Assembly: GCA_006508105.1 (NCBI GenBank)
Contig: QKPP01000266.1
Span: 1 to 64,000 of the forward strand
Source: Myxococcales bacterium FL481
GTDB lineage: Bacteria; Myxococcota_A; Polyangia; Nannocystales; Nannocystaceae
Length of the DNA stretch: 64,000 bases
Direction of reading: 5' to 3'
Shown: piece after piece, positions 6,196 through 47,046 of the stretch
Layout of the letters: every line of letters starts with the position of its first letter
How positions within the stretch are numbered: the first letter of the stretch is position 1
Notes under the pieces: generated by a model
Told to the model about the DNA's origin: nothing
What the model saw: the letters and a program-made list of their open reading frames with translations, nothing else
Databases searched by the model: none
Program-made: the position numbers and the translations under genes

Positions 6196-9100
6196 ATGCG
6201 TCGCCTCACTCACCTGTTGACCTGGTCATTTTTTCTGCTGTTCGCGTGCGCAGCCAGCCAGCGCGCCACCAAGGGGCCCCAAGGGAGCAAGGACGAGGGT
6301 CCGATGTCGACGGGGACCTTCGACGGGCTGGCTCTGCGCAGCATCGGACCGGCCCTGATGTCGGGGCGCATCGCGGACATCGCGGTGCCGCCCGGGGACC
6401 CCAACGTCTGGTACGTGGCCGTCGGTTCCGGGGGGGTGTGGAAGACGGAGAACGCGGGCACGACGTGGCAATCGATGTTTGATGGTCAGGCGTCCTACTC
6501 GGTGGGTTGTGTAACCGTCGACCCGTCGAATCCGCACGTCGTTTGGGTGGGAACGGGCGAAAACGTCGGGGGGCGCCATGTCGGGTACGGCGACGGAGTG
6601 TATCGCTCGCGCGACGGCGGAAAATCTTGGGAGAACCTCGGGCTCAAGCAAAGCGAACACATCTCGAAGATCATCGTGCACCCCGAGGATTCCGAGACCG
6701 TGTGGGTTGCCGTGCAAGGCCCCCTGTGGTCTTCGGGGGGGGAGCGGGGTTTGTACAAAACCACCGATGGCGGGGGCACATGGCGTCAGGTACTCAGCGC
6801 TGGCCCTTGGACTGGCGTGACGGATCTGGCCATCGATCCCCGAGACCCGAAGGTGCTGTATGCGGCGACGTGGCAGCGCCACCGCACCGTTGCCGGCTAC
6901 GTGGGCGGTGGTCCCGAGTCGGGCCTGCACAAGTCGGAAGACGGCGGCGAGACCTGGAGACGACTCACCAAGGGGCTCCCTGGCGATCCGAAGCGAACGC
7001 ACGAGCCGGAGAAAAAGGGGCTGCGCCCACCGAGCAAGCCGATCGACGACGGCAACATGGGCAAAATCGGCCTGGCGATCTCACCCCAAAACCCCGACGT
7101 GCTGTACGCCGCCATCGAAGTCAACCTGCGCAAAGGGGCGGTGTTTCGGTCCACGGATCGCGGCGCATCCTGGGAGAAACGCTCGGATACCGTGTCCGGC
7201 GGAACGGGTCCTCACTACTATCAGGAGCTGTATGCCTCGCCGCACGCCGAAGGTCGGATCTACTTGGCGGACGTACGGATTCAGGTGTCTGACGATGGCG
7301 GCAAGACCTTCCGATCCCTGACGGAGAAATTCAAACACTCGGACAATCACGCCCTCGTGTTTCGCTCTGACGATCCCGACTACTTGCTGGTGGGCACCGA
7401 CGGTGGACTCTACGAGAGCTTCGACCTCGCGAAGAACTGGCGCTTCGTGGACAACCTCCCCGTGACCCAGTTCTACAAGGTGGCGGTGGATGACGCCGTA
7501 CCCTTTTACAACGTGTACGGCGGGACCCAAGACAACAACACGCAGGGCGGCCCCTCCCGCACCGATAGCGCGTCGGGGATCCGCAACGCAGACTGGCGCA
7601 TCATGCTGGGCGGGGACGGCCACCAGCCGGCGACCGAGCCCGGCAATCCCAACATCATGTACGCGGAGTGGCAGCAGGGGAATCTCGTGCGCGTCGACAC
7701 CACGACGGGGGAGCGGGTGTACATCAAGCCGCAGGCCGCGCCCGGTGACCCGCCAGACCGATTCAACTGGGACTCACCGATTCTCGTCAGCCCGCATTCG
7801 CCAACGCGCCTGTACTTCGCGTCCCAACGGTTGTGGCGCTCGGACAACCGCGGGGATTCGTGGACCGCGATTTCGGGTGATCTCACACGAAACGAGGAGC
7901 GACTGTTGATCCCGCACATGGATCGCAAATGGAGTTTCGACTCGCCGTGGGATCTGTGGGCGATGTCCGAATACAACACGATCACCTCCGTGGCCGAGTC
8001 TCCCCGCCAGCCGGGGTTGCTTTACGTGGGCACCGACGATGGGCTGATTCAGGTCACCGATGACGGGGGCAAAAACTGGCGCAAGATCGAAGTCGGCAAG
8101 CTGCCGGGGGTGCCGAAGCGGGCGTTTGTCAACGACATCAAGGCCGACCTGTTCGACGCCGACACGGTCTATGTCGCCCTCGACAACCACAAGTACGGCG
8201 ACTTCGGGCCGTATCTTCTGATGAGCAACAACCGCGGCCGAAGCTGGCGGTCCATCGCCGGGGATCTGCCCGATCGACATCTGGTATGGCGCGTGGTCCA
8301 AGACCACGTTCGCAAGGAGCTGTTGTTCGCCGGTACGGAATTCGGCGTCTTCTTCACGGTCGATGGGGGACGTCAGTGGATCAAGCTGGCCGGGGCGGCG
8401 CCGACGATCCCGTTTCGGGATCTGGCGATCCAGCGCCGCGAAAACGACTTGGTCGGCGCGAGTTTTGGCCGGGGCTTTTGGATCCTCGACGACTACACCC
8501 CGCTGCGATTCGTCGATCAAAAGGCGCTGAGCCAGCCCGCGATGCTGTTCTCGCCGCGGCGCGCCTATTGGTACATCGAGCGGCGAGATCTCGGATCGTC
8601 GCGGAACAAAAAGGCGGCGCAGGGCGAGGGCTTCTACACCGCCGACAATCCTCCCTTTGGTGCCGTGCTCACCTACTATCTCAAAGACGGTCTTCGCACC
8701 CGCACCATCAAGCGGCGCGAACAGGAGATCGAGCGCATGAAGCTGGGCAAGGACACGCCGTTTACCAGCTGGGACGACATGGAGGCCGAGGCACGTGAAC
8801 CCGAGCCCGCGATTATCTTGACCGTGCGGGATGACCAGGGGCAAGTTGTGCGTCGTTTGTACGGGCCGACGTCGCCGGGGATGCATCGCGTGGCTTGGGA
8901 TCTGCGGCTGCCCGCTCGCACTGCGCTCGGGCTCAAGTCGGACTACAAGTACGCTGAGGATCACGAGCCGCGCGGCGTCATGGTGGGTCCCGGTCGCTAC
9001 ACCGTGACGCTCTCCAAACGCGAGGACGGCAAGACGGTCGACCTCACCGGGGCGGTCGATCTCGATGTGGTGCCTTTGCGCCAAGGCGGCGCGCTGCCGG

Positions 9101-39276: not shown

Positions 39277-39610
39277 ACTGCGACAGCCTTGTCATAGTGC
39301 AGGTGCCTCGGCCGTCGCCGATCGATCATGCTGGTCGCGATTTTTTTGCGTTGCACCTCGACGCGCGGGGAAGCCTTGCATGCGTCCGCGGCCCGGGCCC
39401 GGCCACGGGCGCCGGTCGGCGTGGAGACAGCGCGTGGGTCGATGCCTGGATCGCCCCGCAGGCTGCTAAGAGCGGCGTGCGGTGGAGGAACCGCGTTGCC
39501 GGGGCCGGCTCGCGTGGCTACCGCGGCGCGTCCGGTAGCCTATTCTTTCGTTCGGACCGTTGCGCAATGCTGGGATAGCGCGTGGTCGAGCCGCGTGGCT
39601 AAATCAAAGC

Positions 39611-40264
39611 ATGAAGCGCTTGCTCTCCACGTTTCTCGTCATGGCCCCTTGTTGGGCGTTGTCCGCCGGCTGCGATGACCCTTCAGACGGCGCGACGGAC
39701 GGCGACGATGACGAAGACGCGCTCGGTGACGATGACGATGACGATGACGATGACGTCGGTGACGACGACGATGATGCCGGCGACCCGGACCCCGGGGCCG
39801 GTGATCTGGACTGCACCACGATCGAGCCGACCGCCGGAGACGTCGTCGTCGGCAGCGTGCTCAACGATTTCTCCCTGGTCGATCAGGACGGGGTGACGCA
39901 CACGCTGCACGGGAACTGCAACGGCACGACGGTGCTGTTCCAAACGGCCGCCTGGTGAAGCACCTGCCGCAAAGACATTCCCGTGTTGGAAAGCAAATAC
40001 AACGAGTTTATGGGCGCAGGTCTGCAAGTGTTCGTGCTGATGGGGGAGGGGCTTGTCACCCAGGTCCCCCCCACGGCCGATGAACTTCGCATCTGGACCG
40101 ACGAAGGCGCGTCGTTCCCGATTTTGAACGACCCGCTGTACCAGCACAGCCAAGAGTATGTCGGCGGCATCAGTCTCGGTTCCGCGCTGGTGGTGGGTCC
40201 GGGGGTGAAGGTGGCCGTCAAGCCCGTGATGGATTTGCACGGCATTGCCCCGGTTGCGCCCTAG
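39611..40264 (+). CDS. Predicted selenoprotein: thioredoxin-fold (TlpA/AhpC-like) lipoprotein with UxxC redox motif; in-frame TGA at 39956-39958 read as Sec
   Basis: MKRLLSTFLVMAPCWALSAGCDD...DDDDD...VGSVLNDFSLVDQDGVTHTLHGNCNGTTVLFQTAAW[U]STCRKDIPVLESKYNEFMGAGLQVFVLMGEG...SALVVGPGVKVAVKPVMDLHGIAPVAP*. ORF-track entries 39560..39958 and 39983..40264 are in the same frame. Confidence 0.88.
39956..40004 (+). promoter_or_regulatory. Candidate bacterial SECIS element (UGA plus downstream bulged hairpin)
   Basis: Hand fold: CGUGUU (39982-39987) pairs with AUACAACG (39997-40004) with two single-nt bulges, apical loop GGAAAGCAA starting with GG about 30 nt after UGA. No thermodynamic fold was run. 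Confidence 0.4.
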
Positions 40265-40290: not shown

Positions 40291-41376
40291 ATGTTCATGC
40301 AGATGCATCATTTTTTTCGTCGGCTGCCCGGGGCGGCGATCGGGTTGTCAGTGGCGCTCGGATCGGTTTCTTGTCAGGACTCTTCCTCGGATGGGGGCAG
40401 CCAAGACGACGATAACGGCCAAGACGACGACGACGACGACGCGACCGACGACGACGACGACGACGACGACGAGACCAGCGGGGACGACGACGAGACCAGC
40501 GGGGACGACGACGAACCGTCCGGCACCGGAGGTGATGACGACGGCACGCCAGATGGTCCCGAGGACGGAGAGGTCGAACTGCGCATCCCATTTCGGTTGG
40601 TCGCCGGGGACGAGCCTGTGGCTTGCGATGAGCCGGTGGAGGGCATTGGGACGGGTGAGGACCCGCCGCCGCTCCAGTTGATCGACGCGGGGCTGTTCCT
40701 CCACGGCTTTTCGCTGGTCGATGGCGACGGGGAGGATGTTCCGTTTCGCCTGCATCAAGGCGGCGACTGGCAGCTCGATAGCCTGGTTTTACTGGACTTC
40801 GCGACAGACGCCGGGCCGTGGTGCGAGGCGATCAACAGCCCTGAGACGAACACCGAGGTCTTGGGGTACGTCGCGGAGGATGCCGATGTGGCCGGGGTCC
40901 AGTTCCACTTGGGGGTACCCGACGCGCTCAACCATCTCAGCGTCCTCGATGCCGATCCGCCGCTGAGCGTCGCCCGGATGTTTTGGAGCTGGACCGCGGG
41001 TTATCGCTACCTCAAGCTCGACTTCGGGCTTGAGCGCGACGGGACGGAGGGCATGTTCCTGTTTCACCCCGGCGCCGAGGGGTGCGATCTGACGGACGAC
41101 GAGTACCATTGCGACGACTACCGCAATGCAGCCTATCAGGTGGCTCTCGACCCGAGCGAGGAGGCCGTCGCGCTTGACATCGCAGTGCTGTGGGGACAAG
41201 TGGATCTGATGCAGTCTGGGGGGTGCATGGGCAGCGGGGTCGTGCCGGTGCCGGACGGGGAGGACGGGGAGACGGTTTGTCCGACGATCTATGGCGAGAT
41301 CGGGCTCGACATCGCGGACATGCCGGCGGTCGAAACGGGCGAACACCCGGCGTTTCGTGCGATGGCCCTGGACTAG
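40291..41376 (+). CDS. MbnP-like lipoprotein ('metallo-mystery pair' four-Cys family; copper-associated)
   Basis: Lipobox SVALGSVSCQD, Asp-rich linker, GGDWQLDSLVLLDFATDAGPWC, VAGVQFHLGVPDALNHLSVLDADPPLSVARMFWSWTAGYRYLKLDFGLE. Alternative GTG start at 40264. Confidence 0.85.
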   Translation: MFMQMHHFFRRLPGAAIGLSVALGSVSCQDSSSDGGSQDDDNGQDDDDDDATDDDDDDDDETSGDDDETSGDDDEPSGTGGDDDGTPDGPEDGEVELRIPFRLVAGDEPVACDEPVEGIGTGEDPPPLQLIDAGLFLHGFSLVDGDGEDVPFRLHQGGDWQLDSLVLLDFATDAGPWCEAINSPETNTEVLGYVAEDADVAGVQFHLGVPDALNHLSVLDADPPLSVARMFWSWTAGYRYLKLDFGLERDGTEGMFLFHPGAEGCDLTDDEYHCDDYRNAAYQVALDPSEEAVALDIAVLWGQVDLMQSGGCMGSGVVPVPDGEDGETVCPTIYGEIGLDIADMPAVETGEHPAFRAMALD

Positions 41377-41381
41377 CCCTC

Positions 41382-42587
41382 GTGGCCGAGAACGTCGCGA
41401 TCCGTTTCGCGGTTCTGCTCGCCGCCGGGGCGCTCGCATGCTCATACGGAGATGGAGCGGCTCGAAGCGACGTCGACCCCACCTGGGGAGGCGCGCTCGA
41501 GTCTTCGACTGGCGACGCCCAAGCTTGGGCGTGGGACCTCCCGCGCGGAGTCGACCCGCCCCCACAACGAGCTGAAAACCCCACGACGGCGGCCAAAGTC
41601 GCGCTGGGGCGCCAGCTGTTCTACGACCCGACGCTCTCGGGCAATGAAACCTACGCCTGTGCGACTTGCCACGAGCAAGCGCTGGCGTTCACGGACGGGA
41701 TGCCCGTTTCGACCGGCTCCACCGGCGAGCAGACCAGCCGCAACGCGCCGTCGCTGGTCAACAGCGCGTACGCGTCGTTTCTGACGTGGAGCAATCTCGT
41801 GTTACGTGACATGGAGGCCCACGCCATCGTGCCGCTGTTCAACGACCAGCCCATCGAGATGGGGGCGTCGTTTTTCCAAGACGAGATCATCGAACGGCTC
41901 GCCGCCCAGGAGCGCTACGTCGTGGACTTCGCCGTGGCGTTTCCGGAGCGACCTTCGCCCGAACAGATCTCATGGACCACGATCGTCGACGCGTTGTCTG
42001 CGTTTCAGCGATCGCTGGTGTCGTTTGAGTCGCCCTACGATCGCTGGTTGGATGGCGACGCGTCCGCGCTCACGCCCGAGGCGAGACGGGGTCTGACGTT
42101 GTTTACCTCCCCGCGCCTCGGCTGCAGTCGCTGCCATGCGGGGCGTCTGCAGTCGCTGGCATTTCCGACTCGCGCGGACGAACGCCCAGCGCACTGGTCC
42201 GAGCTGTTCCGCAACACGGGGTTGTACAACGTCGATGGTCGCTACCCGCAAGCCAACCCCGGCATCGTCGAGTTTACGGGGGACCCGGGCGACGACGGCA
42301 AGCATCGGATTCCCAGCCTCCGCAACGTCGCTCTCACTGCGCCCTACATGCACGACGGCTCGATCCCAACTCTCGACGCGGTCCTCGACCACTATGCAGC
42401 CGGGGGTCGCACACTCGACGGCATGCACGCCGGTGTCGGGGCGGACCATCCCAACAAAGATGCGCTGGTCAGCGGGTTTGAACTTGCTGCATGCGACCGC
42501 CGCGATCTCATCGCGTTCCTGCTGAGCCTGACGGACGAATCGGTGCTCAAAAACCCGCAATTGTCAGATCCGGCCGGCGGGCCGTGA
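41382..42587 (+). CDS. MbnH-like di-heme cytochrome c peroxidase family protein
   Basis: Two CxxCH motifs (CATCH, CSRCH), ALGRQLFYDPTLSGNETYACATCHEQALAFTDGMPVSTG...RNAPSLVNSAY, IPSLRNVALTAPYMHDGSIPTL. GTG start 6 nt after the MbnP stop. Confidence 0.92.
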   Translation: MAENVAIRFAVLLAAGALACSYGDGAARSDVDPTWGGALESSTGDAQAWAWDLPRGVDPPPQRAENPTTAAKVALGRQLFYDPTLSGNETYACATCHEQALAFTDGMPVSTGSTGEQTSRNAPSLVNSAYASFLTWSNLVLRDMEAHAIVPLFNDQPIEMGASFFQDEIIERLAAQERYVVDFAVAFPERPSPEQISWTTIVDALSAFQRSLVSFESPYDRWLDGDASALTPEARRGLTLFTSPRLGCSRCHAGRLQSLAFPTRADERPAHWSELFRNTGLYNVDGRYPQANPGIVEFTGDPGDDGKHRIPSLRNVALTAPYMHDGSIPTLDAVLDHYAAGGRTLDGMHAGVGADHPNKDALVSGFELAACDRRDLIAFLLSLTDESVLKNPQLSDPAGGP

Positions 42588-43584: not shown

Positions 43585-46500
43585 CTACATGTTGCGACGG
43601 TACTGCCCGCCCACGCGGTAGAGTGCCCGGGAGAGCTGTCCTAGGCTGCAAACCTTCCCGGCCTCCATCAGGGCGGTGAACGTGTTGTCGTGGCGAGTGG
43701 CCGCGTCTTGGAGCGCTTCGAGAGCGGCCGGGGCCGTTTCGACGTTTCGCTGGTGAAAAGCCTGGAGCGAGCGGATCGCGTACTCCTTCTCCTCGGATGT
43801 CGACCGGATCACTTCGTCGGGCACGATGGTCGGCGAGCCGCGCGAGTCGAGGAAGGTGTTGACGCCCACGATCGGCATCTCACCGCTGTGCTTGAGCGAT
43901 TCGTAGTGTAGCGACTCCTCTTGGATCTTCGTGCGTTGGTACATGCGCTCCATGGCTCCGAGCACGCCGCCTCGCTCGGTGATGCGACGAAACTCGGCCA
44001 ACACCGCCTGCTCGACGCGATCGGTGAGTTCCTCGATGACAAACGCGCCCTGGAGCGGGTTTTCGTTCTTCGCCAAGCCGAGCTCTTTGTTGATAATGAG
44101 CTGGATAGCAAGGGCTCGGCGAACGCTTTCCTCGGTGGGCGTGGTGATCGCCTCGTCGTACGCATTTGTGTGTAGCGAGTTACAGTTGTCGTAGAGCGCG
44201 TACAAGGCTTGGAGCGTGGTGCGGATATCATTGAACGCGATCTCTTGGGCGTGCAGCGAACGGCCTGATGTTTGAATATGATACTTGAGCATCTGCGAGC
44301 GGGCGTTGGCGCCGTACTTGTTGCGCAATGCCTTGGCCCAGATTCGCCGGGCGACCCGGCCGATGACCGCGTACTCGGGGTCGACGCCATTGGAGAAGAA
44401 GTACGACAGACTCGGGGCGAAGCTGTCGATGGGCATCCCTCGGCTGAGGTAGTACTCCACGTAGGTGAAGCCATTCGCCAAGGTGAACGCCAACTGAGTG
44501 ATGGGGTTCGCGCCCGCCTCAGCAATATGATAGCCCGAGATCGAGACCGAGTAGAAGTTTCGTACGTTGTGGTCGACGAAGTACTGCTGAATATCGCCCA
44601 TCATGCGCAAGGCGAACTCCGTCGAGAAAATGCAGGTGTTTTGTGCCTGGTCTTCTTTCAAAATGTCGGCCTGTACGGTACCGCGGACGCGGGAGAGCAC
44701 ATCGGCTTTGATCTTGTCGTACGTATCGCGGGGCAGCACCTGATCACCGCTGGCACCGAGCAGCATGAGGCCCAGCCCGTCGCTACTGTCGGGGCACTCG
44801 CCTTGGTAGCGGGGGCGAGGGAGGCCGCGCTCGGCGTAGCGGGCGTCGATCAGCTCGCGGACGCGTTCGGTTTGCCCGGTCTCTCGGATGTGGCGCTCAC
44901 ACTGCTGGTCGATGGCTGCGTTCATGAAGAAGGCCAACAGCATCGGCGCGGGGCCGTTGATCGTCATCGAGACCGAGGTTTTCGGATCGATGAGATCAAA
45001 ACCGCTGTAGAGCTTTTTGGCGTCGTCGACCGTGGCGACACTCACCCCCGCGTTGCCGATTTTTCCGTAGATGTCTGGGCGGTGGTCGGGGTCTTCTCCG
45101 TACAAGGTGACCGAGTCGAACGCGGTCGACAGGCGAGCGGCCGGCATGTTGCGCGAGACGTAGTGAAACCGTTTGTTCGTGCGCTCAGGGCCGCCTTCGC
45201 CGGCGAACATGCGCGCCGGATCCTCGCCGGTACGTTTGAGGGGAAACACTCCCGCCGCGTAGGGGAACGAGCCCGGCACATTTTCTCGTAGCTGCCAGGC
45301 CAAGATATCGCCCCAATCGCGGTAGCGGGGCAGGGCGACTTTGGGGACCTCCAGCTTGCTCAGCGAAGTGGTCGTCAGGTCGAGTTTGACGGTTTTGTCG
45401 CGGACGCGAAACTCATATTCACGGGCCGCGTAGCGGGCCAACAGGCTCGGCCAGCCCTCGAGAAGCCCCCGACAATCGCCGGGTAGCTGGTCGCGGGCCT
45501 CGTGGTAGCGCTCGCGGAGCTGGCCGATCGTGTCATCGTCGTGCTCGGCGGCTTCGATCACTGCGCCCATGGTGGTGGCCGTCTGGTCCGGATCACCGCG
45601 CAGCAGATCGATGGTGCCGCGGAGGGCGAACATGCGCCGGGCCAACTCGCTTTGCCGACGCACGAATTCGTCGTACGCATCGCTCGACTCCGCGATCTCG
45701 GCGAGGTACCGCGTGCGCGCGGCCGGGATCACCGCGTGCCGCTCGGCATCGGCCGCCTGGAGCGTCGCGGTGGACCGCAAGGGGGCGCCGGTACGGGCGA
45801 CGATGGTGGCGAGAAGCCGCCGGTACAGCTCGTTGGTGCCGGGGTCGTTGAACTGTGACGCGACGGTCCCAATCACCGCAAGTTCGTCCTCGGAGGCGTC
45901 GAAACGCTGCTGGTTGCGGCGAACCTGACGTCGAACGTCGCGCAACGCGTCCTCCGACCCGCGTTTGTCGAATTTGTTGATGGCGACGACGTCGGCGTAG
46001 TCCAACATGTCGATCTTTTCGAGTTGGGTGGCGGCGCCGTACTCTGAGGTCATCACATACAGCGCAACATCGCAGTGGTCGGTGACCGCGCTGTCGGATT
46101 GGCCGATACCCGAAGTCTCGACAATGATGAGGTCAAAGCTCGCGGCTTTGCACACTTCGATGGCTTCTTGAACGTGCTTGCTGAGGGCGAGGTGCGAGCG
46201 TCGCGTGGCCAACGAACGCATGTAGACCCGCGGATTGTCGATCGCGTTCATTCGGATGCGATCACCGAGCAGCGCCCCACCGGTTCTTCGTTTCGACGGG
46301 TCGATCGAGATGATCGCGAGGTGTTTGTCCGCGAAGTCGAGGAGAAAGCGGCGCACGAGCTCGTCGACCAAACTCGACTTGCCCGACCCGCCGGTGCCGG
46401 TCACGCCCAGCACCGGTACCGGGTGGGCGTTGACGACCTGGCCCAGTCGCGGTTCGATCTCCGCGAACCGGTCCGGGTCGTTTTCGGCGGCGGAGATGAG

Positions 46501-47046
46501 CTTGGCGAGCAAGCTCGGGTCTTTGTCGCGCAGGTCGGCGACGCGGCTCGGTTCGAACGGCTGGGTGACGACGGGCCGACAGCGGGCCAACAGGTCGTCG
46601 ATCATGCCCTGTAGGCCCATCGCGCGCCCGTCGTCAGGGGAGTAGATGCGCGCGATGCCGTAGCGGTGCAGTTCGTCGATCTCGGAGGGCAAGATGGTAC
46701 CGCCGCCCCCGCCGAAGATCGCGATCGACTCGGCGCCGCGCTCAACCAACAGGTCGCGCATGTACTTGAAGTACTCGACGTGCCCGCCCTGATAGGATGT
46801 GATGGCGATGCCGTGGGCGTCCTCGGCGATGGCACAGTTGACGATCTCGGCGACAGAGCGGTTGTGGCCGAGATGGATCACCTCCGCTCCCGAGGCCTGT
46901 AGGACGCGGCGCATGACGTTGATCGCCGCGTCGTGTCCGTCGAACAGCGAGGCCGCGGTGACGATGCGCACCGGGGGGGTCGGCGTCGCGGGAACCGGTG
47001 GTGGTGGAGCCGCGGTGGGGGTCGAAGGGTGGCGGTCGGCGGTCAC
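43585..47046 (-). CDS. icmF: Fused isobutyryl-CoA/methylmalonyl-CoA-type mutase (B12-binding + MeaB-like G-protein + mutase)
   Basis: N-terminal [50 protein letters not shown]-terminal mutase [27 protein letters not shown]. Confidence 0.95.

Follow-up and report, generated by a model that had tools for sequence, protein, structure and literature searches.

The frame at 39611-40264 of the window, by which we mean the whole 64,000-nucleotide stretch of DNA analysed here, is very probably a genuine selenoprotein gene, encoding a redox lipoprotein in which an in-frame TGA would be read as selenocysteine (Sec) at the catalytic position. Translation with TGA as U gave a protein of 217 aa with a single TGA at residue 116, in the context FQTAAW-U-STCRKDIPVLESKY (read through as FQTAAW-U-STCRKDIP), after which the frame resumed to a TAG stop codon at 40262-40264, as a preliminary description of this DNA had stated. 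Also as described there, the standard code splits the gene into two ORFs, one of 132 aa (39560-39958) and one of 93 aa with a GTG start (39983-40264). Residues 80-183 of the read-through protein, which span the TGA, matched the Pfam families AhpC-TSA and Redoxin, with scores exceeding the gathering thresholds of both PF08534 (33.3 bits versus 26.6) and PF00578 (36 bits versus 26). Beyond the TGA no further stop or frameshift occurred over 101 codons, and the codon-usage log-odds of this part were +21.9 in the redoxin frame versus at most +0.7 in the other five frames. The open frame by itself says little, because random sequence of the same composition stays open over 101 codons in about 8% of cases, and the argument is carried by homology. 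What exceeds chance is the Pfam match through the TGA, the codon bias beyond it and the presence of TGA at this one column in 12/12 close family members of the genome; translation, Pfam, alignment and codon usage showed the coding sequence to be conserved on both sides of the in-frame UGA. A sigma-70-type promoter match was looked for upstream of the gene and none was found.

The proposal that the frame encodes a redoxin-like lipoprotein with a normal thioredoxin-fold C-terminus agreed with the Pfam matches spanning the TGA, the ResA-like predicted fold and the predicted lipobox (Table 1). A structural disulfide may join Cys68 and Cys103. The window copy has Gly where the cis-Pro of the thioredoxin fold is expected, a position occupied by Pro in many members of the family.

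Table 1. Features of the candidate Sec-redoxin gene and of the two genes directly downstream
Feature	Position	Strand	Description	Basis
Sec-redoxin lipoprotein gene	39611..40264	+	217 aa with candidate Sec116, ATG to TAG	Translation, Pfam, profile search
Predicted lipoprotein signal peptide	39611..39673	+	MKRLLSTFLVMAPCWALSAG; lipobox LSAGC, Cys21 codon 39671-39673	Read from translation (lipobox)
Acidic linker	39674..39808	+	Asp-rich; comparable acidic linkers in most paralogues	Translation
Cys68	39812..39814	+	In 14/14 examined family members keeping the region	Alignment
ResA-like thioredoxin-fold domain	39830..40261	+		Alignment, AlphaFold pLDDT 91.8, ResA top matches
Cys103	39917..39919	+	Third Cys of the family, nearly invariant	Alignment column C30
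In-frame TGA	39956..39958	+	Predicted Sec116, catalytic position of UxxC	Translation, alignment, paralogues
Cys119	39965..39967	+	Resolving Cys of U-S-T-C	Translation, alignment
SECIS-like hairpin core	39978..39991	+	TTCC-CGTGTT-GGAA, same place as in paralogues; weak, -2.3 kcal/mol	Hairpin folding
MbnP family copper-binding lipoprotein	40291..41376	+	Directly downstream; sole MbnP found in the genome	NCBIfam profile (TIGR04052)
MbnH family di-haem enzyme	41190..42587	+	Two CxxCH; true start uncertain, probably near 41385	NCBIfam profile (TIGR04039)

The window's genome is a MAG of 6.45 Mb in 322 contigs (93% complete, 5.25% contaminated), and the four components for which the preliminary description had proposed to search, selA, selB, selD and tRNA-Sec(UCA), were all found there: selA matched at 416 bits, selB at 309 bits, selD at 334 bits and tRNA-Sec, with anticodon TCA, at 67.9 bits (ARAGORN, tRNA-SeC(tca)). 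The contigs carrying the Sec machinery correlated with the window in tetranucleotide make-up (r 0.98-0.99). The selD gene (L018/L065, contig C138:16690-17625) has its own in-frame TGA in the canonical GGGUAAK context, and SelD itself is, judged by its sequence, a selenoprotein. Use of Sec is ordinary in this lineage, since selA was present in 118 of the 241 sampled genomes of the class, and in 23 of the 29 that belong to the same family.

A profile built from 15 family members (A1), used to search the window's genome, identified 12 close members including the window gene, all 12 with TGA at the catalytic column; the 11 other close paralogues sit on ten other contigs. A single-protein scan of genome contigs returned zero relatives, a search with a two-sequence alignment returned three named loci, including a distant Cys protein, and a plasmid search gave nothing beyond one distant ResA. 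The close members carry the motif UxxC, with UxxU (two TGAs) in the C45 copy only. Identity between the window protein and the A1 paralogues from this genome is 22-36%, too low for strain variants of a single gene. The catalytic residue is likewise encoded by TGA in six more distant redoxins (on C235, C257, C181, C239, C53 and C192, the last being BCP-like with a TPTU motif), so that the 12 family members, these six and SelD make at least 19 candidate selenoproteins in the genome, a minimum that comes from a single line of search. The named relatives are Nannocystaceae bacterium isolate SSF46 and Deltaproteobacteria bacterium isolate ZH-15may19-289. In relatives from other genera, the same column holds TGA (G004, G014, G003, G015, G009, G018 and others) or Cys (G022, G015, G006). 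The TGA occupies the first catalytic position of CxxC with the resolving Cys kept (W-U-x-x-C), as had been claimed, and in homologues precisely this column is taken by Cys or TGA. On a tree made with the catalytic column masked, the distribution of U and C needs seven changes, of which the starred branches force at least six. The TGA-bearing members came from 11 selA-positive genomes and one selA-negative genome (71% complete). The selenoprotein reading with which the preliminary description began therefore finds support in the Sec machinery, the Cys/TGA column and the ResA-like fold.

The published limits for bacterial SECIS elements (bSECIS) are a G in the first two loop positions, a spacing of 16-37 nt, a stem of at least 4 bp and an MFE of -7.5 kcal/mol or lower. 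With strict hairpins, the 31 TGA genes had a mean of -8.2 kcal/mol versus -3.7 +/- 0.55 for synonymous shuffles (0/300 as low), and the Cys homologues a mean of -3.0 kcal/mol; when bulges were allowed the contrast was smaller yet persisted (TGA genes -11.5, shuffles -8.5 +/- 0.66, Cys homologues -7.1). The energy limit with the permissive fold is a lenient test, being reached by 28/31 TGA-bearing genes and also by 21/38 Cys homologues. In eight members that share a register, 94% of the cells were paired and CG, UA, AU and GC all occurred at one stem pair; their covariation score was unmatched in 500 shuffles, a figure whose weight is limited by the kinship of the sequences. The genome G015 has both a Sec copy with a GGUC-loop hairpin (L061) and a Cys relative (L103) that keeps the loop letters and has lost stem pairs, as expected if a SECIS element decays after Cys replaces Sec.

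The hairpin of the window gene itself agrees with the bSECIS model in loop, spacing and 4-bp stem, but its energy misses the -7.5 limit (best permissive fold -3.4 kcal/mol) and is among the weakest of the TGA set. It did not go beyond its own synonymous shuffles, and in plain MFE folding the sequence near the TGA of the window gene was no more stable than expected. This weak hairpin is the main caveat to the selenoprotein reading and makes efficient Sec insertion less certain in the window copy than in its paralogues. Rfam at the gathering threshold gave no match in the window; a permissive Rfam scan gave only miRNA matches, which we ascribed to chance.

The weak hairpin, relative to those of the paralogues, and the long branch of the window gene in the family tree (1.46) would both suit a decaying copy, a former Sec paralogue whose SECIS has weakened and whose UGA now mostly terminates translation. 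We regard this as unlikely, given that the gene retains its catalytic Trp-Sec-x-x-Cys motif, its third Cys, its fold and its codon bias downstream of the TGA, that the 101 downstream codons have neither a second stop nor a frameshift, and that the hairpin core lies in its usual place with a G-U loop start also present in the paralogue L076. An ordinary Cys redoxin whose Cys codon was missequenced, misassembled or hit by a nonsense mutation would require one base change from TGC or TGT, and the assembly is a MAG; against this, the same codon recurs in the eleven paralogues on ten other contigs and in MAGs of other species, and independent errors at all of these are not credible, which makes the explanation very improbable. 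General reassignment of TGA to Cys or Trp would leave the frame open as well, but the full Sec machinery is present and TGA apparently still terminates the frames of several family members at the homologous C-terminus, so that we attach hardly any probability to it. A Sec-decoding redoxin gene accordingly remains our preferred reading.

The AlphaFold model (15-sequence alignment, TGA entered as Cys) had a pLDDT of 91.8, and its best PDB matches by Foldseek were ResA structures (E 6.5e-10, TM ~0.75). The likeness to ResA is one of fold alone, as the NCBIfam ResA model (NF002854) scored 28 bits versus a cut-off of 170 and none of the NCBIfam models reached its cut-off for the redoxin. ResA reduces apocytochrome c outside the cytoplasm. 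With the domain nearest to ResA and the gene directly upstream of those for MbnP and MbnH, a ResA-like periplasmic reductant is our best functional guess, and we consider a disulfide-reductase role moderately likely. The selenoprotein could alternatively act as a Prx- or GPX-like peroxidase: its best Pfam matches are AhpC-TSA and Redoxin, Sec favours peroxide reduction, and separate Sec peroxiredoxin-like genes in the genome (L098, TPTU) show Sec in likely peroxidases. The UxxC motif and the ResA/TlpA type of fold argue for the reductase, as do the profile matches, though these lie far below the ResA cut-off, and the PxxxTxxC/U peroxidatic motif of the 2-Cys/BCP peroxiredoxin test is absent from the redoxin (FQTAAWUSTC); a peroxidase is on balance a doubtful assignment.

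In our preferred reading SelB would bring Sec-tRNA to UGA codon 116, which would be decoded as selenocysteine, and the redoxin would be exported, lipidated at Cys21 and held at a membrane via its acidic linker. Sec116-x-x-Cys119 would then act as the fast selenol/thiol-disulfide couple of the thioredoxin-fold domain, the likeliest chemistry being ResA/TlpA-like disulfide reduction in the cell envelope, and plausible clients would be the apo forms of the downstream MbnP and MbnH (for MbnH, its CxxCH haem sites).

The gene order is tight, with no more than 30 bases between the redoxin stop codon and a possible MbnP start. Neither MbnP nor MbnH was found beside the other paralogues, and among the other members only the C45 copy adjoins a haem protein, a multihaem cytochrome. 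Because most paralogues do not lie beside haem or MbnP genes, the functional link to MbnP and MbnH is thin: on the basis of this one locus it is plausible that the redoxin is the reductant for the pair, and that the two proteins are in fact its clients is a tentative suggestion. A general link between the family and cytochromes was also considered and set aside, the haem-protein neighbour being confined to C45. It is a distinctly speculative idea, and an improbable one, that some Nannocystaceae have a large set of lipid-anchored Sec-ResA paralogues, each with its own extracytoplasmic client, in which the window copy would mature or load MbnP/MbnH and loss of the cis-Pro would let the Sec/Cys pair bind copper. 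Elsewhere in the window, the reverse strand has an ORF of 1153 aa (43585-47046) which, by eye, we take to resemble an IcmF-type fused isobutyryl/methylmalonyl-CoA mutase.

Known selenoproteins, as given in a 2026 review (PMC13188914), include a redoxin family protein (PF08534, UxxC) and a Prx-like thiol:disulfide oxidoreductase (PF00578, UxxC/UxxU), and UxxC redoxin selenoproteins are therefore already a known kind. The present family is similar to these in its thioredoxin/Prx-like fold and catalytic UxxC (once UxxU), whereas, going by the descriptions, it is set apart as a lipoprotein that has an acidic linker, two additional conserved Cys and at least 12 copies in one genome. ResA (Bacillus; PDB 1su9, 1st9), the best structural match, is a membrane-anchored extracytoplasmic reductase with CxxC at a helix start; the redoxin described here differs in its ~22% identity, its score far below the NF002854 cut-off, the predicted Sec in place of Cys, Gly at the cis-Pro position, a predicted lipid anchor and the acidic linker. 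The UGC-containing TlpA/ResA-like WAxxUGC selenoproteins (NF041054) also have Sec in a ResA-like thioredoxin domain, but their motif is UGC and not UxxC, and the match was 18 bits versus a cut-off of 300. What is new would be this subfamily of lipoproteins with an acidic linker and, in Myxococcota, its expansion to 12 copies, the family being apparently undescribed; our search of the literature, subscription papers and preprints lying outside its scope, found no work pairing selenoproteins with Myxococcota or Nannocystis.

Most of the selenoprotein-rich bacteria described to date are anaerobic Thermodesulfobacteriota, Clostridia and Synergistota (PMC13188914). Here a single Nannocystaceae-type genome has no fewer than 19 candidate selenoproteins, of which 12 belong to one, apparently undescribed family. 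Since standard ORF calling cuts such genes in two, annotation of these genomes probably misreads an entire redox family. Sec and Cys have been exchanged repeatedly within the family, and in one Cys copy the hairpin has apparently decayed, which makes the family well suited to the study of Sec gain and loss.

Several further loci were observed during the searches. On contig C45 (L130), the gene immediately following the UxxU redoxin encodes a multihaem c-type cytochrome lipoprotein in which CxxCH occurs five times (6264-8591 and 8595-9044, reverse strand). Contig C117 (L128; 5550-5879 and 6055-6450, reverse strand) has a tandem pair of Sec-redoxin genes; the downstream copy has no N-terminal region in frame and is perhaps a duplicate that has been truncated. 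Contigs C117, C108, C45 and C76 break off within linker codons for poly-Asp in family members, where shared GAC/GAT repeats probably break the assembly. In other genomes, two separate TGA redoxins, one UPPC and one UTEC, occur within ~1 kb (L118, G037:C650), and two TGA-containing TlpA-like domains (ATFUPVCSLEFPD) with strong hairpins lie ~1.85 kb apart, at 1969 and 3819 (L062, G003:C252).
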